58,237 bases of DNA from Actinomycetes bacterium (GTDB taxonomy: Bacteria > Actinomycetota > Acidimicrobiia > Acidimicrobiales > SZUA-35), in NCBI GenBank assembly GCA_024280015.1, contig JAJRQY010000013.1, forward strand, positions 1 to 58,237. The letters run 5' to 3'. The notes under the pieces are model-generated. The model saw nothing but the letters and a program-made list of their open reading frames with translations. It did not search any database and was not told the DNA's origin. Position 1 is the first letter of the stretch, and every line of letters begins with the position of its first letter. Of the stretch, positions 9,956 through 23,543 are shown in pieces. The translations under genes and the position numbers were made by a program.

Positions 9956-10506
9956 ACCAGGCATTTCCAACCAAGTCCCCGGACATCCCCCTCGAAGGAA
10001 TCAGCCATGAGAAGTGGCTGGGCATCTGCCAGACCGTCAATCGTGGCTTGGGTTCCAGCCTGCACTGCTCGCTCGCCACCATCAACCAGGACGGCTCGCC
10101 TCACCTGGCACCCATTGGTTCAGTCCGCTTGTTCGAGTCGGGCCCGCAACACCATGGGCTCTTCTTCGAGCTCTTCGCCACCACTCAAGCCAAGAACCTG
10201 GAACGTGACCCTCGTTTCGCCCTGTTGGCCGTCGACAATTCCCTGGAGTTCTGGATTGATTCGATGACGGAGGGCAGCTTCGGACAGCCTCCGGGAATCC
10301 GGCTGGCGGGAGCAGCTGGCGTTCGTCGTTTGGCAACCAAAGAAGAGATCAAGCACTTCCAACGATTCACCAAACCGCTCAGCCACCTCAAGGGGCATGA
10401 CATGCTTTGGGGCAACACGAAGTGGGTCCGTGAACTGCATTTTGACCAGGTTGACCCTCTGCGCGTCGGCCCGATGACGAGATCAACTGGCTCGATGGCC
10501 TCCTAG
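9952..10506 (+). CDS. Pyridoxamine 5'-phosphate oxidase-like FMN-binding protein
   Basis: 184 residues with a split-barrel flavin-binding pattern: SLATINQDGSPHLAPIGSV near residues 40-60, then a strand leading to AKNLERDPRFALLAVD. This is the usual order in PNPOx-like/general stress FMN proteins, which are mostly uncharacterised oxidoreductases or haem/F420/FMN binders. The ATG overlaps the tetR stop, so it is the likely regulated partner of that repressor. It converges with the SDR at 10503 and their ends overlap by 4 nt. True pyridoxine oxidase activity is unlikely; redox detoxification is more plausible but unproven. Confidence 0.75.
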   Translation: MNQAFPTKSPDIPLEGISHEKWLGICQTVNRGLGSSLHCSLATINQDGSPHLAPIGSVRLFESGPQHHGLFFELFATTQAKNLERDPRFALLAVDNSLEFWIDSMTEGSFGQPPGIRLAGAAGVRRLATKEEIKHFQRFTKPLSHLKGHDMLWGNTKWVRELHFDQVDPLRVGPMTRSTGSMAS

Positions 10507-11261
10507 GCCATGGTCATGCCGCCACTAACCGACAAGGTCTGGCCAGTGATGTAGCCTGCCTCGTCCGAAGCGAAAAATACGATTGCGGGGGCGACGTCGG
10601 ATGGCTTGCCAATACGCCCCGCCGGGATAGCGCGCCCCAGGGAGGAGACCAGCTTGTCTCCTCCATCCGACATTGTCTGTCCTAGATCACTGAGCAGCTG
10701 GGTGTCGGTCGGTCCGGGGCAAACAACATTGACCGTCACACCCTTCTTCGCCAGCTCACGGGCCAGGGTTTTGGAGAAGGAGATCACACCACCCTTGGCT
10801 CCGGAATAGACACCTTCTAGCGATGAGCCAACTCGTCCAGCGTCAGAGGCAATATTGATGATCCGGCCGTGTCCTCGTTCGACCATGCCGGTACCGACGG
10901 CCTTGTTGCAGCGAAGCATGCCGACATAGTTGATTTCAATGACCTGTTCCCAGAACTCTTCGTCAGTATCAAGGAAGGGATAGAGCCGATCCCAACCAAC
11001 GGAATGAACAAGGATGTCGATTGGTCCAAGCTCATTCTCAACTGTCAGCACAGCAGCTTCGACCGATGCCATGTCGGTGACGTCAATCTCGACTGCTAGG
11101 GCTAGCCCTCCATGGGAGCGGATGGCTTTTGCCACCTCTTCGGCCGCGTCAAGAGACAGGTCGGCGATAGCTACCGCTCGACCGGCTGTCGCCAGCCAGC
11201 GGGCTGCCTCGCTTCCGATTCCGCCCGCTCCACCCGTGATCATGGCAATTCGATGCGTCAT
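10503..11261 (-). CDS. SDR similar to 2-hydroxycyclohexanecarboxyl-CoA dehydrogenase/3-oxoacyl reductase
   Basis: 252 residues with TGGAGGIG (9-16), an NAD-selecting Asp in IADLS (32-36), catalytic S139, Y152 and K156, and a C-terminal GQTLSVSGG. GWDRLYPFLDT and CPGPTDTQLL resemble BadH-type dehydrogenases, which oxidise 2-hydroxycyclohexanecarboxyl-CoA in alicyclic/benzoate-type beta-oxidation. The usual NNAG motif is replaced by HSVG (86-89), so an Asn that normally supports the active-site water chain is absent. It is divergent from the LLM enzyme at 11396. A ring-CoA or beta-oxidation substrate is the best guess. Confidence 0.82.
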   Translation of the reverse strand: MTHRIAMITGGAGGIGSEAARWLATAGRAVAIADLSLDAAEEVAKAIRSHGGLALAVEIDVTDMASVEAAVLTVENELGPIDILVHSVGWDRLYPFLDTDEEFWEQVIEINYVGMLRCNKAVGTGMVERGHGRIINIASDAGRVGSSLEGVYSGAKGGVISFSKTLARELAKKGVTVNVVCPGPTDTQLLSDLGQTMSDGGDKLVSSLGRAIPAGRIGKPSDVAPAIVFFASDEAGYITGQTLSVSGGMTMA

Positions 11262-11395
11262 GTCTTCCTACGTTAGTCTCACCATTGTTGTCGGCAGGTG
11301 TCATCAATCACTTGAACGCGATTCATTCCGACATGGATCATCGCAATACACCTGTTTCCTACTGCTCGTCCACCAACTGAAATGGAACTGTTCTG

Positions 11396-12427
11396 ATGGA
11401 ACTCGATCTCATGGTGAGTCCAAGTCGATGGGACGAGGCAGCAGACTTTGCTCGCTCGGCCCAGGCGGCTGGCATCTCCGGCTTGGTATTTGTCGAGACT
11501 GCTCACACGCCCTGGATGAGCATTGCCGCGGCTTCAATGGCTGCACCCGAGCTCTCTTTCGCCACCGGTATTGCTGTCGCCTTTCCTCGCTCACCAATGA
11601 TGGCCGCATCCATGGCGTGGGAGTTGGCCGACAACACCAATGGTAAGTTCCGACTTGGCCTTGGTAGCCAGGTCAAGGCCCACATCGAGCGCCGCTATTC
11701 TGCTGAATTTGATTCGCCAGGGCCCCGGCTCAGAGAATACGTCGAAGCAGTGCAAGCCTGCTTCCGAGCCTTTCGGGGCGAAGAGCGACTGTCTTATGAG
11801 GGCAAGTTTTACAACCTGAGTTTGCTCCCAGCCCAGTGGACTCCCGCCAAGCATGCCCATGGCGACATCAAGGTCGATGTGTCAGCGGTTGGTCCGTGGA
11901 TGTCGCGCATGGCTGGCGAGGTGGCGGACGGCGTGCACGTGCATCCGTTGCATTCAATCCGTTCTCTCCAGGAGGTTTTGATCCCTCGCTTGGAGGAAGG
12001 GGCAGCCAAGGTTGGCCGTGACGCCTCAGAGATTGATCTGATCGTGCCTGTGTTTTCTGTTGTTGGCGACAGCGCCGATGAACAGGCCGCTTCTTTGGAT
12101 TTTGCCAAGCAACAGATCGGCTTCTACGGCTCGACCCGCAATTACGCCTTCCAGTTCGAGATGCTCGGTTTTGATGGCTTGTCGGCCCAGTTGAACGAGA
12201 AGCTCAAGGCTGGCGATGTCGAGGGAATGATGGATCTGATCACCCCCGAAGTGATGCAACACTTCTCGGTGACCGCAAGCTGGTCGGATCTGGCCGACAA
12301 ACTGGTTGACCGCTATGCCGGTATCGCCAGTCGCCTGGTCATGTACTCCGCCCAACCCGACATCAAGGCCAACCCTCAGAACATGTCCAAGTGGGGCGCC
12401 ACCGCCAAACAAGTCCGGGAAGGTTGA
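11396..12427 (+). CDS. LLM-class (F420-dependent type) oxidoreductase
   Basis: 343-residue luciferase-like TIM-barrel protein. The motifs are GISGLVFVETAHTPWM, TGIAVAFPRSPMMAA, a GKFRLGLGSQVKAH segment near residue 83, and later DVSAVGPWMSRMAGEVADGVHVHP. This is the pattern of the actinobacterial F420-dependent LLM subgroup, which uses reduced F420 or FMN for hydride transfer. The substrate is not predictable. It is divergent from the BadH-like SDR across a 134-bp gap in which I see no strong box; a shared acyl or ring-compound pathway is possible. The next gene follows after about 106 bp. Confidence 0.85.
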   Translation: MELDLMVSPSRWDEAADFARSAQAAGISGLVFVETAHTPWMSIAAASMAAPELSFATGIAVAFPRSPMMAASMAWELADNTNGKFRLGLGSQVKAHIERRYSAEFDSPGPRLREYVEAVQACFRAFRGEERLSYEGKFYNLSLLPAQWTPAKHAHGDIKVDVSAVGPWMSRMAGEVADGVHVHPLHSIRSLQEVLIPRLEEGAAKVGRDASEIDLIVPVFSVVGDSADEQAASLDFAKQQIGFYGSTRNYAFQFEMLGFDGLSAQLNEKLKAGDVEGMMDLITPEVMQHFSVTASWSDLADKLVDRYAGIASRLVMYSAQPDIKANPQNMSKWGATAKQVREG

Positions 12428-12533
12428 GCGGCTGAGGGCGGTTCTTCTTGTGCCCACATATTGTTCGCATCAGCGAGCAATACCGACTGTGCCTCGGGCG
12501 GCACGAACGCAATTCCTGCTATAGGTTGGCGCG

Positions 12534-14066
12534 ATGTCCATCTGGTTGATCATCCCACTCATTGTCCTCGGTCTCTTGTTGATCGTCGCCCTTTGGGATG
12601 TGACCCAGAAGAAACACGCCATCCTGCGAGCTTTCCCGGTGGTCGGCCACATTCGTTATTGGTTGGAATCGATCGGACCTGAGCTACGTCAATACGTTGT
12701 GGCCGACAATAGCGAGGAACGTCCTTTCAGCCGGGATCAGCGCCGCTGGGTCTACGCCTCGGCCAAGTCACAGAATCCGTACTTCGGCTTCGGAACCGAA
12801 TCCAAGCTCGATTCGACCCAGCATCTGATCATCCGCCACAGCCCGTTTCCCTTCCAAGCCGAAGAGCCAAACCCTCAGAGCATCGTGCCCGCGGCCAAGG
12901 TGATCGGCGAATGGAACAACCGGCCCGGTGCCTTCCGGCCCCAGTCCATTGTCAATATCAGCGCCATGAGTTTCGGCTCCCTGTCCGGACCAGCGGTCGA
13001 GGCCATCAATCGTGGTGTCAAGATTGCCGGCTGCATGCAGAACACCGGCGAGGGCGGCATTAGCAAACACCACCGCCACGGTGGTGACCTGATCTACCAG
13101 CTCGGCACCGGCTATTTTGGGGCTCGCGGCTCGGACGGCCGATTCTCCATGGAAACACTGATGGAGACGGTCACCTCGGCTCCGGTGAAGATGATCGAGA
13201 TCAAGCTTTCTCAAGGGGCCAAACCCGGTTTAGGTGGGGTGCTGCCCGGAGCCAAGGTGACCCAAGAGGTAGCAGAGGCCCGAGGCGTCCCCGTTGGCAT
13301 CACCGTGGCCAGTCCAAGCTCCCATCGAGAATTCGAATCAATCCCAACCATGATCGACTTCATCGAACGAATTGCTGATGCCACCGGCTTGCCCGTTGGC
13401 ATCAAGTCCGCGGTTGGCAACGAGGCGTTCTGGCCCGAACTTGCCCTCCAGATGAAGGCCCGCGGTGCTGGCCCCGACTTCATCACCATCGACGGAGGCG
13501 AAGGCGGAACCGGCGCCGCTCCCCTGGTCTTCAGTGACCATGTCGCCCTCCCCTTCAGAGCTGGTTTCGCCCAGGTCTTTCGAGCCTTTGCCCAAGCAGA
13601 GATGGACAAGAATGTGACCTTCATCGGGGCAGGCAAGGTCGGCTTCCCCGGAGAAGCCCTGCTGGCCCTTGGACTGGGAGCAGACATGGTCTATGTCGCT
13701 CGAGAAGCCATGATGGCCATTGGCTGCATCCAGGCTCAACGCTGTCACACCGGCCACTGCCCGACGGGAATCGCCACCCACAACAAGTGGTTTGTTCGCA
13801 GCCTGGACCCGACAGATAAGTCAGCCCGGCTCGCCAACTATGTGATCTCGCTTCGCCACGGCCTGCTGGATCTGGCCCACGCCTGCGGTGAATCACACCC
13901 ATGCCTGGTGACCGGCTCGGCCATTGCCCTACTCGGCACTGGCCACCTCACCGATCCCCTGTGGGAGCGCTACAACTATGACCCAAGCTGGATGAGTGTC
14001 AGTGACGGATTCCGTAAGGATGTTGGCGAGTTCATGGTCAAGGCGGCAACCAATGAAGCTGCCTGA
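12534..14066 (+). CDS. Membrane-anchored FMN-binding glutamate synthase-like protein
   Basis: 510 residues. An N-terminal TM helix (about 3-21) is followed by the glutamate-synthase central/FMN domain: NISAMSFGSLSGPAV, GEGGISKHHRHGGDLIYQLGTGYFG, IEIKLSQGAKPGLGG, and DGGEGGTGAAP. Cys 398, 404 and 409 have the C-x5-C-x4-C spacing that binds [3Fe-4S] in GltB. There is no glutaminase domain, so it is not a full glutamate synthase. Family members are widespread and mostly uncharacterised ammonia-dependent GltS-like or other FMN oxidoreductases. A TAGGTT hexamer (about 12522-12527) 6 nt before the ATG suggests leaderless initiation. Its end overlaps the CoA-transferase start by 14 nt. Confidence 0.85.
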   Translation: MSIWLIIPLIVLGLLLIVALWDVTQKKHAILRAFPVVGHIRYWLESIGPELRQYVVADNSEERPFSRDQRRWVYASAKSQNPYFGFGTESKLDSTQHLIIRHSPFPFQAEEPNPQSIVPAAKVIGEWNNRPGAFRPQSIVNISAMSFGSLSGPAVEAINRGVKIAGCMQNTGEGGISKHHRHGGDLIYQLGTGYFGARGSDGRFSMETLMETVTSAPVKMIEIKLSQGAKPGLGGVLPGAKVTQEVAEARGVPVGITVASPSSHREFESIPTMIDFIERIADATGLPVGIKSAVGNEAFWPELALQMKARGAGPDFITIDGGEGGTGAAPLVFSDHVALPFRAGFAQVFRAFAQAEMDKNVTFIGAGKVGFPGEALLALGLGADMVYVAREAMMAIGCIQAQRCHTGHCPTGIATHNKWFVRSLDPTDKSARLANYVISLRHGLLDLAHACGESHPCLVTGSAIALLGTGHLTDPLWERYNYDPSWMSVSDGFRKDVGEFMVKAATNEAA

Positions 14067-15411
14067 GGTATGGAACCTGGCACCGGGCAACAGTTCGGCT
14101 CTGAACCGGCTGGTCCAGGACGGACAGCCCGACCTGCAATCGGCCTTCGAGGTCGACGAGGTGACCCTGACCTCGGTGTCCGCCGCGGCCTTAGCCATTG
14201 CCGAACTCGGACATCAGCGGGGATTGTCTGCCAACGAAGTCCGTGTCAATGGCGATGACGCCAGGGCGGGCTTTGCCAATCATCTTCTGGTCAACGACGA
14301 AAGGCCACCGATCTGGTCAGACTTGTCGGGCTACTACCGATGCCAAGACGACCGGTTTGTGCAGTTCCATTGCAACTGTCCCCATCATGCGGCCGGTGTG
14401 GTTGCCCTCTTGGGCGGCGATCCCGACCGGGCCTCGGTCGAAACAGCAGCGGCAACGTGGGATTCTGAGGATCTCGAAGCAGCGCTCATCGAACGGGACA
14501 TGATCGCAGCCAAGCTCCGGACTCTGGAGGAATGGGATGCTCATCCTCACGCCATCGCCACACGGGACCTGCCGCTTCTCACCTTCGAAAAGATCGGTGA
14601 GGCCGACCCACGGCCACTGCCCCCGCTCACCGAAGGTCCGGGAGGTACGAGCCAGGCCATGAGCGGGGTTCGAATTATTGACTGCTCGCGAGTACTGGCC
14701 GGACCAGTGGTTGGCCACATGATGGCCGCTCATGGAGCTGACGTTCTACGGCTGAGCTCACCCCACCTACCAGCGGTGGAAATCTGTGTGCAGATGACTG
14801 GCGCAGGAAAACGGAATGCCTTCGTCGACCTCGATACCGCTGAGGGCAAGTCCACCATGGAATCTCTTTTGGCTGACGCCCATGTCTGGGTTGATGCCTA
14901 CCGACCAGGTGGATTGGAAGGCAAGGGTTTCACCGCAGAGTCAGCAGCGGAGTTGAATCCAGGAATTGTGGTGGTCCAGCTGTCGGCTTTTGACTGGGTT
15001 GGCCCGTGGGCGGGTCGCCGTGGTTTTGACTCCATCGTGCAATCGACAACGGGCATTGTTGACGCCGGTTCCAAGGCTGCGGGTCGCGAGGCTCCAACTC
15101 CCCTACCGGTTCAAGCCTTGGACTATGCCACCGGTCAACTTGGTGCGTTCGCCGCCGCTCGCGCCTTGCAGCATCAGAGCGTGCACGGTGGGTCGTGGCG
15201 GGTCAGGTTGTCGCTGTTGCGAACCCGTAACTGGCTGGTTGGATTGGGCGGACCAACACCATTTGAGCCGGCTCCCGCCGTGGCTGCCCCCCAATCGGCG
15301 TATGAGGTCGATTCAGCGTGGGGGCGGTTGAACCTGGCGAAGCCTCCGACCGGGTCCTTCACCAGCCCGCCAATGAAGCTGGGAACGGCGGACGCGGTTT
15401 GGCTGAACTGA
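14053..15411 (+). CDS. CoA-transferase family III (CaiB/BaiF-like)
   Basis: About 452 residues from ATG 14053; earlier in-frame starts lie well inside the upstream gene. The second half carries the family III signature: MSGVRIIDCSRVLAGPVVGHMMAAHGADV, NPGIVVVQLSAFDW, RGFDSIVQ, and a candidate catalytic Asp in QALDYATGQLGAFAAARA. The first 200 residues look like a diverged, partly duplicated lobe. Family III enzymes move CoA between acyl groups. A gene overlap of 14 nt with the glutamate-synthase-like gene suggests a two-gene operon; how the two activities connect is unknown. The substrate cannot be inferred. Confidence 0.83.
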   Translation: MKLPEVWNLAPGNSSALNRLVQDGQPDLQSAFEVDEVTLTSVSAAALAIAELGHQRGLSANEVRVNGDDARAGFANHLLVNDERPPIWSDLSGYYRCQDDRFVQFHCNCPHHAAGVVALLGGDPDRASVETAAATWDSEDLEAALIERDMIAAKLRTLEEWDAHPHAIATRDLPLLTFEKIGEADPRPLPPLTEGPGGTSQAMSGVRIIDCSRVLAGPVVGHMMAAHGADVLRLSSPHLPAVEICVQMTGAGKRNAFVDLDTAEGKSTMESLLADAHVWVDAYRPGGLEGKGFTAESAAELNPGIVVVQLSAFDWVGPWAGRRGFDSIVQSTTGIVDAGSKAAGREAPTPLPVQALDYATGQLGAFAAARALQHQSVHGGSWRVRLSLLRTRNWLVGLGGPTPFEPAPAVAAPQSAYEVDSAWGRLNLAKPPTGSFTSPPMKLGTADAVWLN

Positions 15412-15489
15412 CCGTCAACCGGCTGACCAGCTGACCAGCGACAGGCTGACGTTCGGGACTGGGCCGAATGATCCTTCAAGCGTGACCGG

Positions 15490-16371
15490 TTAGGGAAGAC
15501 TGTCGCGAACCTCAATGTCATCGATCCACAGGTCAACGGCCTCGGCATTGGAATACAGGGTGAAGGGCATCCACCGGTCGAAGTCTTCCGCGCCGCGATT
15601 GGGTCCCATCCTGTCCGCCACCGTCTCGCCATTGACCCGCCACCAGAAACGGCCATCGTCACCGTCACTGCGATGCAAGAAGACTTCGACCTGGAACCAT
15701 TCACCAATGGGGACAGCAAGGTCACGATTCTCCTCCTGCCAATACTCCTCATAGACGGGCGCATCATCGGTCTCGTTATCCCCGTGGGCGTACCAGTAGA
15801 GGTTCTGATCGGGGTCGCTATAGACATAGACGGCGATGCGGTAGCCGTTGCAGCAGGTCTTCCATTCCAAGAAGGCGAACCAGCCATCAGGGCCAAGAGC
15901 ACTCGGCAGATCGTCGGGAAAACGCATCCAGTATGAGACATACAGGTCGCTGTCTTCGGTCTTGGTTTCGATCAGGTAGGGATCTTGAGTCCAGTCTTCC
16001 GCCTTTTGGAACTGGCGTAGGTGCAGTGCCCGGGTTGTCGTCCCATCGTGGCCGATTGTTTCTTCCAGCTCATTGCTCAGATAGTCCCCGACCGGCAGGC
16101 TGCTGTCCACCAAGACTTGGAGCGCCCCGTCGCTACCCCAAATGTTCATGGGCCACGCGTAGCCACTGGCGTCCTCACCCTCGATTGGCTGCCACCAGGT
16201 GCCACCTTCGTCGTGAAAGGGATCAGCGAGGAAGACACCGTCTTCGAACCCAGAGCGGAATAAGACGGAGGAGTCGGACTTGCTCTCCTCGTTCCCCTTG
16301 TTGACTTCGTTGGTTGCTCCGCCACACGCGGTCAACAGGGCGGCAGCGAAGGCCGCCATTGCTAGCCGCAT
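15490..16371 (-). CDS. Lipoprotein with lectin/polysaccharide-lyase-like domain
   Basis: 293 residues. The N-terminus has a short signal peptide and lipobox LLTACGG, so Cys16 should be lipidated. A Ser/Lys/Glu linker is followed by a Trp- and Tyr-rich beta-sandwich: FRSGFEDGVF, LYVSYWMRFPDDL, WFAFLEWKTCCNGYRIAVYV, WFQVEVFLHRSDG, WWRVNGE and a C-terminal WIDDIEVRD. This arrangement is typical of concanavalin-like, heparinase/alginate-lyase-type extracellular domains that bind or cleave polysaccharides. The ATG lies 2 nt after the stop of the AhpD-like gene, so they are co-transcribed. No catalytic residues can be assigned with confidence. Confidence 0.7.
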   Translation of the reverse strand: MRLAMAAFAAALLTACGGATNEVNKGNEESKSDSSVLFRSGFEDGVFLADPFHDEGGTWWQPIEGEDASGYAWPMNIWGSDGALQVLVDSSLPVGDYLSNELEETIGHDGTTTRALHLRQFQKAEDWTQDPYLIETKTEDSDLYVSYWMRFPDDLPSALGPDGWFAFLEWKTCCNGYRIAVYVYSDPDQNLYWYAHGDNETDDAPVYEEYWQEENRDLAVPIGEWFQVEVFLHRSDGDDGRFWWRVNGETVADRMGPNRGAEDFDRWMPFTLYSNAEAVDLWIDDIEVRDSLP

Positions 16372-16373
16372 GT

Positions 16374-17381
16374 CTAGCGAGCCCAGTTCGAGGCGAGGCC
16401 AAGCTGGGTTTCGATCGAGCGATCTGTCGGCTTGGGAACCCCCGTGGCGTCCAGCAAACGATTCATCATCTGGAAATTGCCAGCTGCTCCGGCGGCGGCC
16501 GCTACTGCCCCTGATCCGAGAGTTTTCGCCAGGTCTGATCGGGTGGTCGCCAGGTTCTTGTCGTCGCGGGCAACAAGGGCAGTGGTGAAGGCCAGTAACT
16601 CTGCGCCACCAGGGAGAAGCGGATCAAGAGACAGGTCGGGAATGGCCCTGAGGTTGAGGGTGGTGTTGGTGGCTTCGGCGCTCGCACGGAGCATCCTGGC
16701 GTGAGCAATCAGTCAGTAGACGCATTGGTTGATGAGCGAGGTTCGAGAGGCAACCAGCTCGAGTTGAGCCCGAGTGAGACCCTTCACAATCTCCATGTCG
16801 CCCATCTCCTCGTAGCTCAAATAGAGAGCTCCGTGCAGGTCGCGTTGGGCCTCGTCCTCCGCTGCTACACCCGACAAGGCGGTGACGGCGCCAGCGGCCC
16901 CGACCATGGGGACCCATGCCGACCGCTTCTTTGCCTTGGCCGGCACGATCTGAGAGGGTTCTCCCGACGACGGGGTTGGGAGAGGTTCTTCGTTTCCTCC
17001 GGTGCCACGAACTGCGGTGTCGATCGCCACCATACGGGCGACAACACCGACGATTTCGGTGTAGGCGGAAGCGGAGAGGCCATCGGCTTCAAATTGGTTC
17101 AGCATGTCCGAGCTGATTGAGACTGGATTGGCCGCCACGGCGGCCGCGGCCTGGGTTGCTGCCAGTGGAAGCATGAAGTTGGTGGTGTCAGCACCAGCCA
17201 GAGCCTTGCGGGCTACCTCGGCGATGGCAACACGTTCGGCTCCCGTCCACCAGGTTCCTGCCTGGCCAAGCCGTTGCCACTCTCGCCGGATCCCATCCAG
17301 CATCGCTGGTGACATGACGTGGTGCTCGCCTTGGTTCGCTCCGGCTCCATACTGATCGAGGGAGGCGAACGAAGTAGTCAT
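16374..17381 (-). CDS. AhpD/CMD-like protein with in-frame UGA at the CxxC site (candidate selenoprotein)
   Basis: One frame runs from ATG 17381 to TAG 16374-16376, interrupted only by TGA at 16713-16715. Around it the translation is SLINQCVY-(UGA)-LIAHARMLRA. The alkylhydroperoxidase AhpD/carboxymuconolactone-decarboxylase site is normally C-x-x-C-x3-H, so the UGA falls exactly on the second redox Cys. AhpD-like selenoproteins with Sec here are an established class. The sequence after UGA stays coding (about 112 residues). A hairpin with GG in its loop lies 10-36 nt after the UGA start. The start at 17381 follows a TACTAT box by 6 nt. If not Sec, this is a nonsense-mutated gene. The C-terminal lipoprotein gene follows directly. 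Confidence 0.7.
16680..16706 (-). promoter_or_regulatory. Possible bacterial SECIS hairpin
   Basis: Read on the minus strand, bases 10-36 after the UGA can fold as GCU/AGC plus CACG/CGUG with a two-base 3' bulge and an 11-nt loop containing AGGAU. Bacterial SECIS elements sit just after the UGA and need a G in the apical loop. Here the loop begins about 13 nt after the codon, slightly closer than the usual 16-37 nt. The stem is short, so support is modest. Confidence 0.35.
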
Positions 17382-17387
17382 GACTAC
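17374..17387 (-). promoter_or_regulatory. 14-bp perfect palindrome over the AhpD-like start
   Basis: GTAGTCATGACTAC is perfectly self-complementary and contains the ATG at its centre. A TACTAT -10-like box (17388-17393, minus strand) abuts it. A dimeric repressor here would block both transcription start and initiation. No regulator gene is adjacent. Confidence 0.5.
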
Positions 17388-17476
17388 ATAGTAGACCGAT
17401 GCCACACTAGGGGGAAGTCAAGATCACGCGAGAATGAGATCCTCGATGTGGCCGAGACGTGGTCCATACTTGGGCG

Positions 17477-18364
17477 ATGACCACCGCCACCGCTCATAGC
17501 TATTTCGATTCTGCTTCTGACGTTTTGCTCGATTCGTGGTTTCCTCCCGAGGGCATCGAGCCCAAGCGGTTCTGCTTGGGCGAGCGGGTTGGTTTGATCG
17601 TCGGCCGGGTGCAAGAGGTTGAGCTTGCCGGCTTGGATGAGGCTCCAGCATCGGCGGGCGACGTGTACTACCGGCTTCATCTATTGTCTCGTTGCGAGGT
17701 GGCACCAAACGAAGTCAACCTCGAAGGGATCTTCGGCCTGCTACCAACGATTGCTTGGACCTCGGCTGGCCCGGTTCTTCCCGAACACGTCGATCAACTC
17801 CGTTCATTGGTGGCTGGGCATGAACATCACTTGCAGGTGACCTCAATCGACAAGTTTCCCCGCATGACCGACTATGTCATCCCGGTCGGGGTTCGCCTTG
17901 GTGATGCCGATCGGGTGCGTCTGGGTGCTCACCTTGCACCGGGCACAACGGTCATGCACGAAGGGTTTGTGAACTTCAATGCTGGATCACTGGGTCCGGT
18001 GATGATTGAGGGCCGGGTGACACCTGGGGTGACCGTTGGCGGAGGTTCAGATATTGGTGCTGGCTCCTCCATTCAGGGGACCTTGTCTGGCGGCGGCAAG
18101 CAGGTGAATTCCATTGGTCAGAACACCTTGCTTGGAGCCAATGCTGGAATCGGGATCTCCTTGGGTGATCGCTGCATTGTTGAAGCTGGGCTCTATGTCA
18201 CCGCTGGCACCAAGGTCCTATTGGCGGACGGGACAGTGGTGAAGGCTCGAGAGCTGTCTGGCCAGTCCGATCTCCTGTTCTGGCGTAATAGTCAGAGCGG
18301 TGCCATCGAGGCTGTGCCCGCAGCCAGCTCAAACTGGGGCGGGCTAAACAGCGATCTGCACTAG
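17477..18364 (+). CDS. dapD: 2,3,4,5-tetrahydropyridine-2,6-dicarboxylate N-succinyltransferase
   Basis: 295 residues from ATG 17477, chosen because a CATACT box lies 6 nt upstream; an earlier start at 17459 would include the promoter. The protein has an N-terminal domain (about 1-120) and a left-handed beta-helix of hexapeptide repeats: VRLGAHLAPGTTVMHEGFVNFNAGSLG, GRVTPGVTVGGGSDIGAGSSIQGTLSGGGK, and LLGANAGIGISLGDRCIVEAGLYVTAG. This is the actinobacterial DapD type. It transfers succinyl from succinyl-CoA to tetrahydrodipicolinate in lysine/diaminopimelate synthesis, in the cytosol. It is divergent from the AhpD-like gene (about 95 bp between starts) and its stop overlaps the broken hydrolase gene's end. 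Confidence 0.93.
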   Translation: MTTATAHSYFDSASDVLLDSWFPPEGIEPKRFCLGERVGLIVGRVQEVELAGLDEAPASAGDVYYRLHLLSRCEVAPNEVNLEGIFGLLPTIAWTSAGPVLPEHVDQLRSLVAGHEHHLQVTSIDKFPRMTDYVIPVGVRLGDADRVRLGAHLAPGTTVMHEGFVNFNAGSLGPVMIEGRVTPGVTVGGGSDIGAGSSIQGTLSGGGKQVNSIGQNTLLGANAGIGISLGDRCIVEAGLYVTAGTKVLLADGTVVKARELSGQSDLLFWRNSQSGAIEAVPAASSNWGGLNSDLH

Positions 18365-19190
18365 GCGCTGTCTGCAGACCGCGCCTGTCTGAGTTCGAGG
18401 ATCTGATCACAAATCTGCATGGCGTGGGTCCAGATCAGCAGGTGCCCGGCCCCACTAATCTCCGTGCTGAGCGTGCCCTCGATAGCTTCCCCAATTCGGC
18501 GTTCTCAAACAATGGAGTGACCGTGTCCCGACTACCAAAAACGAGTCGAGTCGGAACCTTGATGCCGCCTAACTGACCGCTGACATCAAAGGACCCCAGA
18601 GCACGAACGCACTCCTTGATGGCCGAGAGATCTACTTCGCCAGCCGATGAGCGGGCAGCCTCGATGAGTTGCGTCGACCCGAATCGCCCAAACATCGATT
18701 GGGAAGCAATGGGCCGAAAGAGCGGCATGTCGTGACCGGCGATCCCCAGCAGTGGGCCGAGCAAGCCGAGCCCGAAACGCTGGTAGGCCATCGAGGCTCG
18801 GGCTGCGGTCGCGACCAAGACCAGTCCCGTTACACGCTGGTCAAAAGACGAGTCTTTCTCAACGGCGTAGCTCATGGCCGCCATTCCACCCATGGAGTGG
18901 CCAACCAGTAAGACATTGTTGAGGTTCAAGTGTTCGAGTACTCGATGAATGTCAAGCCCCAACCGGCTGGTCTCGCATCCAGGGGTGCCGTTGCCCGTCA
19001 CTTCGACCGCAATGGAGCCGCCGTCCGTGGTCTCTATTTGGTGCACCGTGCCCGCTGGAAAGCGAAGCTGGGGTACGGGATTCTCGATGCCGGCCTTGTC
19101 AAGCGCGTTCAGTGATCGACGGGTTGCCGCAGCGGCTGCACCGGCCAGAGCGACAGCAGCAGATCCGACCCAGAGACTAGAAGCACGCAT
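18361..19190 (-). pseudogene. Alpha/beta hydrolase remnant with internal deletion and frameshift
   Basis: The frame from 19190 reads as an alpha/beta hydrolase (RFPAGTVHQIETTDGG, then nucleophile elbow LLVGHSMGGMAAMSYAVE). Between GNGTPG and CETSRLGLDIHRVLEHL the expected segment holding the oxyanion HG motif, beta4 and the D-x-RGHG-x-S loop (about 40-50 residues) is absent. Near 18489-18492 (a run of four C on the plus strand) the frame breaks. The annotated frame ends at 18435, while the next frame continues EAIEGTLSTEISGAGHLLIW, including the catalytic His, to a stop at 18361. So two independent lesions hit one gene. The best reading is a decayed hydrolase; a homopolymer error could explain only the frameshift. 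Confidence 0.8.
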
Positions 19191-19306
19191 GATGAGTAAG
19201 GATCCGTCTCGACATCAAGCCAGGATGCCTTCTGGCCCTCCTCAGAGACGCCCGTTCTGGTGGTGTGCGGTCGTGACAGAGTTGGCTGGGTGTACTGGCT
19301 CCTTTC

Positions 19307-19615
19307 TCAACACCCAAGCGCGTAGCTGAGTGCCGAGCAGACCCGACCCATCGTCTCGTGGTCAATGTCGCCGACATATGCCGCGAGCGTCATCTGGTTG
19401 ATGGTGTGGAGGCCGTCGCAGTTCACCACCGATTCTCGATCGAGACCGATCGAGGTGTGGTCGAGGATGACTTCGGCTGCAAGGCCGCGAGCCGATGTAC
19501 TGATTTCTGCCACGGTGACGAGAGCGCGGACGTCCAGCACCTCGGGGCGGGTGAGCACTAACACAGGCCGTCGCTTTGTGCCGACGGTGGCCAGCCACAC
19601 CTCGCCTCGATTCAC
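19307..19615 (-). CDS. MazF/PemK-family toxin
   Basis: 102 residues from GTG 19615, chosen because that GTG overlaps the antitoxin stop (GTGA). A TTG at 19627 would lengthen it. The N-terminus MNRGEVWLATVG and the strand KRRPVLVLTRPEV are typical of PemK/MazF endoribonucleases, with a conserved basic RRP near the active site. The later DHTSIGLDRESVVNCDGLHTI matches the usual region before the C-terminal helix. Such toxins cut mRNA or rRNA at specific sequences and are held inactive by the cognate antitoxin. The gene follows a CcdA-like antitoxin in the same operon with a palindromic promoter. Confidence 0.85.
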   Translation of the reverse strand: MNRGEVWLATVGTKRRPVLVLTRPEVLDVRALVTVAEISTSARGLAAEVILDHTSIGLDRESVVNCDGLHTINQMTLAAYVGDIDHETMGRVCSALSYALGC

Positions 19616-19821
19616 TCCGTTCCCCAAGCTTCGGTTTCGACCCAGAATCCATCAACGGCCTCCGGCGTCTTGGTGTATGCGCGTCGGTCAGCTTCAGCAA
19701 GCGCTGACCGAACCGCTGCAGCTACACCGTCGCGCGCTGCAGCCGAGACGTTGATGCCAAGACTGCGGGCCTGGTCAGCGAGGGACTCGTCAAGACTAAA
19801 CGTTGTTCGAGTCGTAGTCAT
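19612..19821 (-). CDS. CcdA-like type II antitoxin
   Basis: 69 residues from ATG 19821. An earlier GTG (19839) lies inside the operator and is unlikely. The N-terminal half (TTFSLDESLADQARSLGINVSAAARDGV) matches the ribbon-helix-helix DNA-binding part of CcdA-family antitoxins. The C-terminal part (DRRAYTKTPEAVDGFWVETEAWG) is the flexible toxin-binding tail. It overlaps the MazF-like toxin gene, giving a classical antitoxin-first, co-translated TA pair. A TAGCAT box lies 8 nt upstream, within the palindromic operator, so the antitoxin or complex probably represses its own transcription. Confidence 0.85.
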   Translation of the reverse strand: MTTTRTTFSLDESLADQARSLGINVSAAARDGVAAAVRSALAEADRRAYTKTPEAVDGFWVETEAWGTE

Positions 19822-19851
19822 AGCATGTGATGCTAGCACGTATTGCTAGCA
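19821..19851 (-). promoter_or_regulatory. Toxin-antitoxin operator/promoter with three half-site pairs
   Basis: Two copies of the self-complementary octamer TGCTAGCA (19831-19838 and 19844-19851) are separated by 5 bp. The inner copy overlaps a further inverted repeat, TAGCAT/ATGCTA, at 19821-19826 and 19830-19835. The cluster covers the -10 region and abuts the antitoxin start, the usual layout for cooperative ribbon-helix-helix autorepression. Confidence 0.75.
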
Positions 19852-19954
19852 ATTTCGATGAAAATCTATGCAGTCGGCACCTGATTCCAGGTTCTGAAGG
19901 TGCCCTCCTGCCGTTGTCAGCTATCCGCCTAGGTTTTCGCGCTTTTCGTAAGGC

Positions 19955-20866
19955 TCACGACAACCGAGACCATTCGGAGTGCGATGTCATCGACTTCGGG
20001 TTGAGTAACGGATAGAGCCGACTGCCAGCAGAGCCCGCTGGTTCCGAGCTGATGAAGCTCATTGTGCCCCCAAGCCGACGCTGCTCGGCAAAGCATCTCA
20101 GTACAACGGCCTGACCCAGGCCACGTCGTTGGTAGTCAGGCCGAGTGGCGACAGGGTCGATGGCGGCCACCCCGGTGATGGGGTCGACCTCACCCTTACA
20201 GTAGGCCGCGATGTCACCGTTGCTTGCCCGGGCTACCACCGACAACTCGCTTCGGTACATCGGGTTGGTGGCGAGGCTCATCAGAACCGGAATCCGGTCC
20301 CTCGTACCTCCAAAGGCGCCCTCGAGACAGCGGTCGATACCGGCGTAATCCTCGGGCCCACGGATGGAGTCGACCACAAAGCTCTCCGGTTCCAAGGGTT
20401 CGGGAACGTTTCCGAGGTCATAGCCCCACTCAAGACCGGCGACGTCTCCTTTCACGAACCCATGGCGCCCCAGCACCTCGTGTACCCAAGTCGCTTCGTC
20501 GGACGGGCACAGCACGACCTGTGTCCCCTGCCGTCGTTCAAGCAGCTCCTGTAACGCCCAATCAAGTGTGTGCGTGTCCTCGCTAGCGGTCAGGATGCAG
20601 TAGTCATCGCCGCCCTCCTCGGCAACGACAAGGGCGACAATGTCGCCACCCCGTCGCACCACCGTGCCATGCCGCTGGAAGAACCCCGGCTCGGCTGAAT
20701 CGTTCAGAACGTTGACACCCCAACGGAAGTCGATGAACCGGCCCGTGTTCCACCCCCAAGTGTACTGAGAGAACGGATTGGCTGACTTCAAGAATGCGAT
20801 CGACTCGTCGAGGACGTCGTCGGTGAGCGGTGCGGTGCCAAAGCCGCCGGGTCGTTTCACAGTCAT
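19955..20866 (-). CDS. GNAT-family N-acetyltransferase
   Basis: 303 residues. The C-terminal half has a GNAT fold with the acetyl-CoA loop DPVATRPDYQRRGLGQAVVLRCF, where QRRGLG is motif A, followed by a strand SFISSEPAGSAGSRLYPLL. The N-terminal half looks like a diverged partner domain (HGTVVRRGGDIVALVVAEEGG), giving the two-domain layout of many actinobacterial GNATs. It transfers acetyl from acetyl-CoA to an unknown amine. A CATACT box is 6 nt before the ATG on this strand. Its gene end is 133 bp from the TA operon, with no other gene between. Confidence 0.8.
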   Translation of the reverse strand: MTVKRPGGFGTAPLTDDVLDESIAFLKSANPFSQYTWGWNTGRFIDFRWGVNVLNDSAEPGFFQRHGTVVRRGGDIVALVVAEEGGDDYCILTASEDTHTLDWALQELLERRQGTQVVLCPSDEATWVHEVLGRHGFVKGDVAGLEWGYDLGNVPEPLEPESFVVDSIRGPEDYAGIDRCLEGAFGGTRDRIPVLMSLATNPMYRSELSVVARASNGDIAAYCKGEVDPITGVAAIDPVATRPDYQRRGLGQAVVLRCFAEQRRLGGTMSFISSEPAGSAGSRLYPLLNPKSMTSHSEWSRLS

Positions 20867-21092
20867 TCCACAAGTATGCCCGTGGCCCTCGGGCGAAGGG
20901 GCTTCGCAGATGGGCGTTCGACTGTTTTCATCGAGTGTTCTTGACTGAGAGCCCGAGCCTTAGTGGCGCCAGTCCGAACCAGGCGACGAGGGGCATCTGA
21001 GCAGAATCGTGGCTCGAATCGATTCGCCTTGTGCAGGTTCGATAAGCAGCCTTATCGGCAGCCAGCCCCGCCATGATGTAGCGTCCCCGGGC
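20867..21092. other. Intergenic region with two small inverted repeats
   Basis: This gap separates the divergent GNAT and DoxX-like genes. It holds a 12-bp palindrome CGAATCGATTCG (21015-21026) and a hairpin CGATAAG-CAGC-CTTATCG (21040-21057). A TAGCGT box near 21079-21084 fits the leaderless promoter of the DoxX-like gene. I see no gene here. Confidence 0.4.
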
Positions 21093-21458
21093 ATGGGGAC
21101 TATTGCATGGATTGTTGGAATCATCTTGATCTTGATGTTTGCCATGGCCGGGATGGTCAAGGTCACAGATCACAAGATGGCAGTTGAAGTTCGAACCAGA
21201 CTCGGTCTGGGCAAGAGCATGTACCAGGCCATCGGAGCGGCCGAGCTGCTTGGCGTCCTAGGCCTCCTGGTTGGACTCATCCGAGATGGCAAGTCGTTGG
21301 AGTGGGCTGGCCCATTGACTGCGATCGGTCTCTTCCTTACCATGGTCGGAGCCATCTTCTATCACTTCAAGGCCAAGGACGAACCGAAGGAATCCATTCC
21401 CGCCGCCATGATGGCCATGCTGTCGGTGATCTATTTCGTCACCATCATCGCTCGGTAG
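21093..21458 (+). CDS. DoxX-like small membrane protein
   Basis: 121 residues from ATG 21093. Four hydrophobic stretches are spread as in DoxX proteins: IAWIVGIILILMFAMAGMVKV at the start, then YQAIGAAELLGVLGLLVGLI, AGPLTAIGLFLTMVGAIFYHF, and AAMMAMLSVIYFVTII. The conserved first-helix AGMVK and the GAAELLG motif are typical of this family, which is poorly understood (quinol/thiosulfate oxidoreductase subunits and redox stress roles). A longer frame from 21009 is unlikely because its N-terminus is not hydrophobic. A TAGCGT box lies 8 nt before the start. The next gene follows after 10 nt. Confidence 0.8.
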   Translation: MGTIAWIVGIILILMFAMAGMVKVTDHKMAVEVRTRLGLGKSMYQAIGAAELLGVLGLLVGLIRDGKSLEWAGPLTAIGLFLTMVGAIFYHFKAKDEPKESIPAAMMAMLSVIYFVTIIAR

Positions 21459-21468
21459 CGTCATCCAG

Positions 21469-21960
21469 ATGGAGACGGTCGATAGCGCATTGGAATCATT
21501 GGCTGCATCAGGTCAGGAGTTCGAGCTCATGGCTTGTGATCCGGACCTGGCCGACACCGCCGAGTTCTGCGAGGCCTATGGATTCGCCGCCGAGGATTCC
21601 GCTAATACCATCCTGGTGGTTGGCAAGTCTGACCCGCGGGTCTATGCCGCATGTGTCGTGCTGGCCAACACCCGACTGGATGTGAACAAGACGGTGCGGA
21701 AACGCTTTGGTACCAGGAAGGCTTCTTTCGCCCCCGGCGAAGAGACTGAGGCGATCACGGGGATGACCATTGGCGGGGTCACACCCTTCGGTCTGCCTGA
21801 CGACTTGCCAATCTGGGTCGACGCCGCGGTCATGACTCGCGAACGAATTGTGCTCGGTGGAGGCAGTCGTGACCGCAAGGTCGTTGGCGCTCCTTCGATC
21901 TTGACCGCCCTACCTCATGTCGAGATCGTCGAAGGCCTGGCAAAGCCGATCCCTTCCTAA
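21469..21960 (+). CDS. YbaK/prolyl-tRNA-deacylase domain protein
   Basis: 163 residues with the editing-domain pattern: ANTILVVGKSDPRVYAACVVLA, then DVNKTVRKRFGTRKASFA, TEAITGMTIGGVTPFGLPDDLPIWVD and a closing IVLGGGSRDRKVVGAPS. YbaK-like proteins hydrolyse mischarged aminoacyl-tRNA (such as Cys-tRNAPro) in the cytosol. The catalytic Lys is probably the one in DVNKTV. A TAGCGT box 7 nt upstream overlaps the stop codon of the DoxX-like gene, so it may have its own leaderless promoter as well as read-through. Confidence 0.85.
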   Translation: METVDSALESLAASGQEFELMACDPDLADTAEFCEAYGFAAEDSANTILVVGKSDPRVYAACVVLANTRLDVNKTVRKRFGTRKASFAPGEETEAITGMTIGGVTPFGLPDDLPIWVDAAVMTRERIVLGGGSRDRKVVGAPSILTALPHVEIVEGLAKPIPS

Positions 21961-22118
21961 ACCAGCAACCTCGTAGCCGCCTCCGGGGACGATTCGGCTA
22001 GGTCCGTCGATGTCTAGAGAATGCTGCCTCCAGCATCCCTCAAACCAATGGGGGGTGAAATACGAGTAGGTGAGCACATGCTATTTTTCTTGTTGAATTC
22101 CTCTAATTCGATACATTC

Positions 22119-22150
22119 CAGTTGTAAATCGAACAACTGTTCGCTACAGT
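22119..22150 (+). promoter_or_regulatory. SOS (LexA) box inside a -35/-10 promoter for the HNH gene
   Basis: TCGAACAACTGTTCGC at 22129-22144 is an almost exact actinobacterial LexA box (CGAAC-N4-GTTCG is perfect). It fills the 17-bp spacer between a TTGTAA -35-like box (22122-22127) and a TACAGT -10 box (22145-22150), and the start codon is 7 nt further on. A second overlapping repeat, CAGTTGT/ACAACTG, spans 22119-22139. LexA bound here would block polymerase. The -10 to ATG distance implies a leaderless transcript. Confidence 0.8.
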
Positions 22151-22157
22151 AACGCAC

Positions 22158-23543
22158 ATGGAACTCGGAGAGCTGACGGCGAAACTCCATAATCTTTACA
22201 ACTTCGACCCCGAAGCGCTTTCCGATAGGGACCTCTTCCGGGTGACGGTGCAGATCGAAGAACTATCAGCTGCGGTGCTCGCCCACGGCATGCCGTTCCA
22301 GGCTGCGGCCCACAAGCGCAAGTCCTATCGGGCTCGCCGGTACCGCTCCTCGGCGACTGGTATCTCCAATGAGTCCCGTCTCTCCAGAACCACCTGTGGG
22401 CATCATACCAATCAAGCTGACACCATCGTCAACCGGCTTCCACGTGTACATACCGCCTACCTTGCTGGCATCATGAACCCCGATCAAATCCAACTCATCT
22501 GCCGCTACGCCGACCTCTCTCACCTGTTGGAATACGCCGTTCGAGATCAGACATCATTTGTCGACTGGTCTTGTGATCCATGGCCCCTGTTCAAAATCCA
22601 GATGCAAGCTTGGGCTGAAGCTGTCGACCCGCGTGATCCCACCGACCAAGACGAGAAAGACTTTCTTGATCGCCGGCTCGTCTGGGCCCAAGGTTTGGAC
22701 AAAACAATCCTGATGGAGCTGTCGATGCCAAACCAGGTGTTTGAGGTGTTCCTCAATGCCGTCGGCCCGACGTATGATCAGCTCCTACGCGAAGAGATAC
22801 GCGAGGCACGCCTTGCTGCCGGACTCAATCCTGATGAGCAGGATGATGGTGAACGGTTCCTCGACCTTGGGCGAACAGATCGACAACGCTGGTTAGATGC
22901 TCACTCCATCGTCCTTCGAGCCGGTGGCGCCGCCATCAAGAACATGCACTCGCAAGCTGCCACCAGCGGAGACGAACTCGACTCAGACGACATCGACCCA
23001 GGATCACGAACCTAGGTCATCGTCATCCTCGACCAGAAAACGGCCGAACGCGAGATCGCCCGCCGTCAGGGCCTTACCCTCCCCCCGCTCACCGCCCAAG
23101 ACGCAAAGGACTACCGTTGTGAGACCCTGAGTGGGTTACCAATCTCCCCCGCCATCGCTGTCGACTTCCTCGAACTTGGCGATTTTCGTCGGATGATCCT
23201 CAAGCCGAACGATCTCGACTTCCACCTGTCTCGAAAGACTCGATTCTTCACCGGCGCCCGACGAACTGCTCTGATTGCCCGAGATCGGTATTGCCAAGAT
23301 CCAGGATGTGGAACCCCCGCCAACAAATGCGAAGCCGACCACATCAAAGAATGGTCCAAGGGCGGAGAAACCGTCCCCGACAACGGGAAGATGCGATGCG
23401 GCCCATGCCACCGGCACAAGAGCTGGCTTCAAGCGCATGGGCTCTGGGTTGATCCTGACAAACCGAAAAAACCGACTCGACCCACAGCCTCGAATGATCC
23501 AGACCTAGCCGACCTGTTCACCGAACCGTTCGCTGCCGCATGA
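22158..23543 (+). pseudogene. DUF222/HNH endonuclease (13E12-type), interrupted by in-frame TAG
   Basis: A single frame spans 22158-23543 with one TAG at 23013-23015; without it the protein would be 461 residues. The N-terminal part (about 1-280) is a DUF222-like helical region. After the stop, GLTLPPLTAQDAKDYRC leads into the HNH nuclease: CQDPGCGTPANKCEADHIKEW, SKGGETVPDNGKMRCGPCHRHKS, with zinc-binding Cys pairs and catalytic His. The stop replaces a codon in SRT-x-VIVILDQK, explained by CAG to TAG. Members of this family are SOS-induced in mycobacteria, and a LexA box precedes this gene. If real, the stop severs the nuclease domain from the DUF222 part. Confidence 0.85.

Follow-up and report, generated by a model that had tools for sequence, protein, structure and literature searches.

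A probable selenoprotein gene of family NF041238 with a Sestrin-like layout in its predicted structure

Within the window, by which we mean the whole stretch of 58,237 nucleotides that was analysed, the minus strand carries a frame that opens with an ATG at 17381 and continues in sense codons down to 16377, with one TGA inside. This TGA is residue 223 of 335 and lies in the motif C220-V-Y-U223-L-I-A-H227; another 112 residues come after it before the frame ends in a TAG. The original prediction had placed an in-frame UGA on the second Cys of a C-x-x-C-x3-H motif, with coding sequence for about 112 residues past it, and both statements agree with the frame as read here (UGA at 16713-16715, residue 223). 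It had also argued that a Cys codon reaches UGA only by transversion, which holds for TGC as well as for TGT. The gene and the features discussed below are as follows.

16374..17381, minus strand: probable selenoprotein gene, 335 residues including Sec223, stop TAG at 16374-16376
16713..16715, minus strand: in-frame UGA, probable Sec223, the U of C-x-x-U-x3-H
16758..16760, minus strand: Glu208, present in 48 of 48 aligned sequences, 12 residues before the Cys; by spacing it corresponds to Glu118 of AhpD and Glu36 of PA0269
16722..16724, minus strand: Cys220, first residue of CxxU, 48 of 48
16701..16703, minus strand: His227, 48 of 48; by spacing it corresponds to His137 of AhpD and His55 of PA0269
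16932..17381, minus strand: N-terminal half, about residues 1-150, predicted AhpD-like helical fold without Cys
16404..16925, minus strand: C-terminal half, about residues 153-326, predicted AhpD/CMD fold with Cys220 and Sec223
16677..16695, minus strand: candidate bSECIS-like hairpin, an imperfect helix with its core at 16680-16692, proposed from conservation across relatives

The ATG at 17381 is the likeliest start codon; other in-frame starts are GTG 17405, ATG 17315 and ATG 17303, and inspection by eye revealed no clear ribosome-binding site upstream of ATG 17381. On the same strand, a lipoprotein-like ORF (15490-16371) begins 2 bp past the selenoprotein stop and may for this reason be co-transcribed with the gene. 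It showed a weak polysaccharide-lyase match to PF14099 (22.9 bits, not reaching the cut-off of 29.9), and no relatives of it were found in the flanks of other family members. Further minus-strand genes encode an alpha/beta hydrolase (18435-19190), whose matches start well inside the profiles (for example at position 58 of 245) and whose front part may be missing, and a PemK/MazF-like type II toxin-antitoxin protein (19307-19627; PF02452, 50.2 bits), and an ORF on the plus strand (13996-15411) matches CoA-transferase III over profile positions 1-202 of 366 only, by residues 222-414 of 471. When 11 other window genes (10503-23015) were compared with the loci of relatives, most of whose flanks reach about 1.5 kb beyond the gene and those of L078-L096 mostly 4-5 kb, the sole gene with matches was a short-chain dehydrogenase (10503-11261), found in two loci (L096 and L087); such enzymes are common. 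Given this near-absence of conserved neighbours, no operon-based function can be assigned.

The read-through protein matched the NCBIfam family NF041238, "alkylhydroperoxidase-related (seleno)protein", with 234.5 bits (cut-off 175), and PF02627 (CMD) with 31.4 bits (gathering cut-off 23). Scored separately, the pieces before and after the UGA gave 137.6 and 71.5 bits to NF041238, in order along the profile and each below 175. Because the full match spans the UGA and both pieces match the same profile, the frame through the UGA is more than chance. The protein thus shares with NF041238 (AhpD_rel_CFYUT) a score above the curated cut-off and the CxxU motif, but it carries CVYUL in place of CFYUT and its match stops at profile position 338 of 357. 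In a tree of 48 sequences, built without support values, it fell within a group of 12 in which Leu always follows Sec, and away from the CFYUT paralogue that the same genome holds at C78. The window gene adds one more member to a selenoprotein family that had been catalogued before: the Sargasso Sea selenoproteome, in print in 2005, includes a CXXU protein under the name "hypothetical protein 1" (PMC1088965), and a 2026 review lists NF041238 as an AhpD-related Sec family with CxxU and traces it to that work (PMC13188914), in keeping with the earlier remark that AhpD-like selenoproteins are known.

The original prediction had proposed a search for selA, selB, selC and selD, and we found selA, selB, tRNA-Sec and selD all in the same assembly (4.8 Mb, 175 contigs, 96.6% complete). 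The selA (419.5 bits) and selB (290.3 bits) genes both exceed their cut-offs and overlap by 4 bp on contig C15, the tRNA-Sec scores 66.4 bits (gathering score 47) and has the anticodon TCA, and selD (375.5 bits; G000:C58:4240-5163) carries its own in-frame UGA in HGAGUGCK. Past the selD UGA, a hairpin similar to the one in the window gene could be seen by eye; it reads GCTC-CGGGG-GAGC, and 16 nt separate the UGA from its loop. A second "SelB" match, at G000:C39, was recognised by eye from its sequence as EF-Tu. The genome also holds a second NF041238 gene of the CFYUT type (G000:C78:19679-20692; 310.5 bits, one TGA), as well as a peroxidase-related fragment at a contig end (G000:C137:3-206) with an in-frame TGA (ECHYU), which scores 38.8 bits, below the family cut-off of 81.8, and is perhaps part of another AhpD-type selenoprotein.

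These genes bear on whether the UGA might instead be reassigned throughout the genome, or read as Cys or Trp without selenium. The in-frame UGA itself would fit such decoding, and we found nothing further in its favour. Set against it are the tRNA-Sec, SelA and SelB of the genome and the use of TGA as an ordinary stop in the window, where it closes 14 of a hand-picked set of 29 ORFs. Together with the codon bias described below, which marks a hairpin just past the UGA, this makes genome-wide reassignment or selenium-free read-through extremely improbable.

We collected relatives from 395 genomes of the same class, the window genome included, taking E <= 1e-20 as a family match. Matches were present in 75 of these genomes, with scores above the cut-off in 74, and six of the 75 carry two or three family copies. 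A draw of 396 genomes from the phylum yielded 86 with any match at E <= 0.001 and four above the cut-off; the six matches in these four genomes each have one TGA. In the class sample, 81 of the 82 family matches (window gene included) contain exactly one in-frame TGA and one contains none. The prediction had suggested looking for Cys or UGA at the site in homologues, and both occur: the motif codon, read in 48 genes with the window gene among them, is TGA in 47 and TGC in one (L092), and six further relatives (L098-L103) have Cys there, their record names indicating Acidimicrobiia, Acidimicrobiales, Microbulbifer (two), Pseudomonadales and Bermanella. Since the query pattern for that search wrote Sec as Cys, Cys forms were found by construction, and the codon was read in 6 of 80 loci. 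selA was detected in 67 of the 75 family-bearing genomes versus 192 of the 320 others (Fisher P 4e-7, with relatedness ignored), and the eight family-bearing genomes without selA are 56-90% complete.

A simpler account would be an ordinary Cys gene that acquired a single change to TGA, either by decay into a pseudogene or through a base-call error. The assembly is fragmented, and Cys forms do occur among relatives. Against this, the TGA recurs in nearly every family match across 75 genomes and in the second family gene of the same genome, and the protein is conserved about equally on the two sides of the UGA, with a mean identity to 47 relatives of 38% before it and 35% after it. Taken with the synonymous bias that peaks directly past the UGA, these observations leave a pseudogene or sequencing error very improbable.

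The candidate hairpin comprises an upper stem of 4 bp (GCUC/GAGC) and a 5-nt loop (CGUGC) at 16680-16692, below which lie a U.G pair, an A x C mismatch and a G-C pair (16677-16695). The rules given for bSECIS elements in PMC13188914 specify a loop of 3-9 nt, an upper stem of 4-16 bp, a G in the first two loop positions and a loop lying 16-37 nt after the UGA. The window hairpin agrees with these rules, with G second and U third in its loop and 24 nt between UGA and loop. Across 114 codon columns with sufficient data in 47 UGA genes, synonymous bias ranked highest at +11, +9 and +8 after the UGA, with P values, in which relatedness is ignored, of 7e-25, 1e-20 and 2e-17, as compared to 1e-6 for the fourth column. 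At +8 Leu is CTC in 47 of 47 genes, at +9 Arg is CGT in 26 of the 30 genes that have Arg, and at +11 Ser is AGC or AGT in all 46 genes that have Ser, whereas elsewhere in these genes TCG is the commonest Ser codon.

Across relatives, 86.3% of cells in the 7-pair helix pair, compared to 81.8% in shuffles (0 of 500 reached the observed value), and only 28-49% pair when the partner is slid. Compensating changes were few: two pairs are altered on both sides, a number that 303 of 500 shuffles reach, and the RNAalifold covariation term for the hairpin is 0. The covariation score of 0.152 exceeds all 500 shuffles (against 0.106), which ignore relatedness, but sliding the partner by +3 gives 0.145. 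Covariation is thin because the upper stem is almost invariant, and the hairpin is supported by its conservation rather than by compensating changes. Folded alone, the window sequence preferred another structure (z 0.02, with 93 of 200 shuffles as good); a stable single-sequence fold is not a rule for every bSECIS element, yet the result counts against the hairpin. The SECIS-like hairpin of the original prediction is thus backed by the bSECIS rules and by its conservation in relatives, but not by the folding of the window sequence.

A search of the assembly for the UGA and hairpin pattern gave four matches, as compared to two in a backwards control; the four were the window gene, its C78 paralogue and two others that by eye lack a convincing gene. 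Among the Cys forms, L098 (JAOTZB010000168.1), 48% identical to the window protein, retains the stem GCTC/GAGC with the loop CGGGC and looks like a recent Sec-to-Cys change. The stem GCTC/GAGC with such a loop is absent from the TGC form L092, while by eye L099 keeps CTC and GAG with no G in the first two loop places and L100-L103 keep less.

Given the position of the UGA at a redox Cys, the Sec machinery, the conserved hairpin and the conservation of the protein on both sides, we are confident that this is in all likelihood a genuine selenoprotein gene of family NF041238, with its UGA decoded as Sec. SelB and the Sec-tRNA (Sec, UCA) would use the hairpin to insert selenocysteine, giving the 335-residue protein. 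The selenoprotein part of the original proposal of a candidate AhpD-like selenoprotein is thereby very probable, but the product is not a plain AhpD, as it has an extra N-terminal half.

Seven columns are invariant in the alignment of 48 sequences, namely E109, Y187, E208, C220, U/C223, H227 and L231, and Tyr222 is replaced by Phe in some relatives. The relay residues described for M. tuberculosis AhpD are Glu118-Cys130-His132-Cys133-His137 and those for PA0269 are Glu36-Cys48-Tyr50-Cys51-His55 (PMC3141380). The window protein resembles AhpD and the peroxidase-related CMD enzymes (M. tuberculosis AhpD, PA0269, 2prr and 6k40) in its Glu-Cys-x-Tyr/His-Cys-x3-His spacing and in the fold of its C-half, and differs from them by Sec at the second redox position and by the additional N-terminal half. 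At the position of the AhpD proton relay, only the C-half is predicted to hold a corresponding set, formed by Glu208, Cys220, Tyr222, Sec223 and His227.

The AlphaFold model of the whole protein (mean pLDDT 94.8, pTM 0.94) resembles two AhpD folds joined in one chain, an N-half without Cys and a C-half that would be catalytic, with the only Cys and the only Sec of the protein both in the C-half. AhpD/CMD-family chains aligned to the model in VIA-align with Z 8.7-11.9, mostly over residues 152-326, a 4-carboxymuconolactone decarboxylase reached 7.0, and sequence matches of the C-half to family members in the PDB go down to E 3e-15. When the N-half was modelled alone (pLDDT 87.7), 11 AhpD/CMD entries came first, from Z 8.2 (3c1l) to 5.4; next was a protein of Methanobacterium at 3.7, and unrelated entries began at 3.3. 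For mostly helical models, the best Z in VIA-align can lie near 14 even where no clear match exists, and a Z below about 13 may mean only a common helical-bundle arrangement. On that scale the N-half, with a Z near 8, scores modestly for a helical domain, so that the case for its AhpD-like fold, which draws on the 11 AhpD/CMD entries at the top and on the start of unrelated ones at 3.3, is good but not certain. Profile comparison of the N-half with the C-half gave a probability of 7% (P 0.0048, 38 columns), and Foldseek alone returned no match at E <= 0.001 for either the whole model or the N-half model.

The best structural match of the whole model was Sestrin2 (5t0n), with Z 16.6, rmsd 3.2 and 11% identity over 236 aligned residues in the range 1-315. 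Five Sestrin2 entries scored Z 14.8-16.6, and the first entry that is neither Sestrin nor AhpD/CMD scored 3.3. The Z of 16.6 exceeds the levels at which VIA-align advises caution for helical models, but the 8.2 of the N-half does not. Foldseek alone ranked a Sestrin2 chain 24th (E 1.1). Sequence searches with HMMER, whose filters drop weak matches, were run up to E 10; the Pfam families that they listed for 48 members did not include Sestrin, and none of the 20 PDB matches was a Sestrin chain.

In the description of Sestrin2 in PMC4674687, each half is like an AhpD-like monomer, with Cys125, Tyr127 and His132 in Sesn-A and no catalytic Cys in Sesn-C. The window protein is similar in having two AhpD-like halves in one chain, here in predicted models only, and in a Cys-x-Tyr-x4-His arrangement that corresponds to Cys125, Tyr127 and His132 (PMC4674687). 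In contrast to Sestrin2, in which the N-half (Sesn-A) is catalytic by that account (PMC4674687), the active half of the window protein would by sequence order be the C-half, because its sole Cys and Sec are located there; this opposite placement is taken from the aligned ranges, not from a residue-level alignment. Such an arrangement is described for fused AhpD proteins of Corynebacterium ureicelerivorans and Comamonas aquatica, which likewise have a Cys-free AhpD-like N-half and a redox C-half (PMC11429811). By the published description, those proteins have two Cys where the window protein has Cys and Sec, and the same paper describes them as possible steps towards Sestrin and reports an electronegative DDYDY hinge for GATOR2 in Sestrin (PMC11429811). 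Among the papers that our literature searches listed, none was evidently on a Sec version of the Sestrin-like layout, though sestrin and AhpD occur together with selenocysteine in PMC7066401, on p53, and with selenoprotein in PMC4349611 and PMC12295726. This layout is the one unexpected element of the locus.

The likeliest function is the reduction of organic hydroperoxides, for which Sec223 and Cys220 would serve as the redox pair. The Sec/Cys pair would reduce an alkyl hydroperoxide by way of a selenenylsulfide between Sec223 and Cys220 and would be re-reduced by a cellular thiol system, while the N-half may act as a scaffold that replaces a second subunit. We infer the substrate, the reductant and the order in which the two redox residues act. 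In AhpD, the second Cys (Cys133) is favoured as the residue that attacks the peroxide. For Sestrin2, it is the first Cys of the motif that is described as attacking (PMC4674687).

The selenoprotein might also serve mainly as a thiol-disulfide adaptor, a sensor or another CMD-type enzyme, a proposal that concerns function only and is compatible with Sec decoding. In its favour, AhpD of M. tuberculosis acts as an adaptor for AhpC (PMC3141380), one of the structural matches is the debrominase Bmp8 (Z 11.9), and the neighbouring genes examined indicate no pathway. On the other side, the protein has the relay residues known from AhpD-type peroxidases, and Sestrin2 is reported to reduce cumene hydroperoxide (PMC4674687), although an adaptor or sensor could accommodate both observations. 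We therefore regard such a role as a considerable possibility, though not the one we favour, and retain hydroperoxide reduction as the likeliest function.

Gene callers that take UGA only as a stop split such genes, so that the annotation would show a 222-residue fragment and an orphan ORF in place of one 335-residue redox protein; the correct reading alters the annotation of a common family, which exceeds the cut-off in 74 of the 395 genomes from this class. The predicted fold links NF041238, which has no assigned function, to the Sestrin architecture, and this link suggests bulky hydroperoxides as candidate substrates, as for Sestrin2 (PMC4674687). A tentative and rather unlikely extension, based on the predicted models, is that NF041238 is the Sec-using prokaryotic counterpart of the Sestrin architecture, an AhpD pseudo-dimer with a Cys-free scaffold half and a Sec half, with the opposite half remaining active in the Sestrins of eukaryotes. 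If true, NF041238 would represent a branch of Sestrin history, provided that there was one fused ancestor and not two fusions, and the same reading would make it a Sec peroxidase able to act as a monomer.
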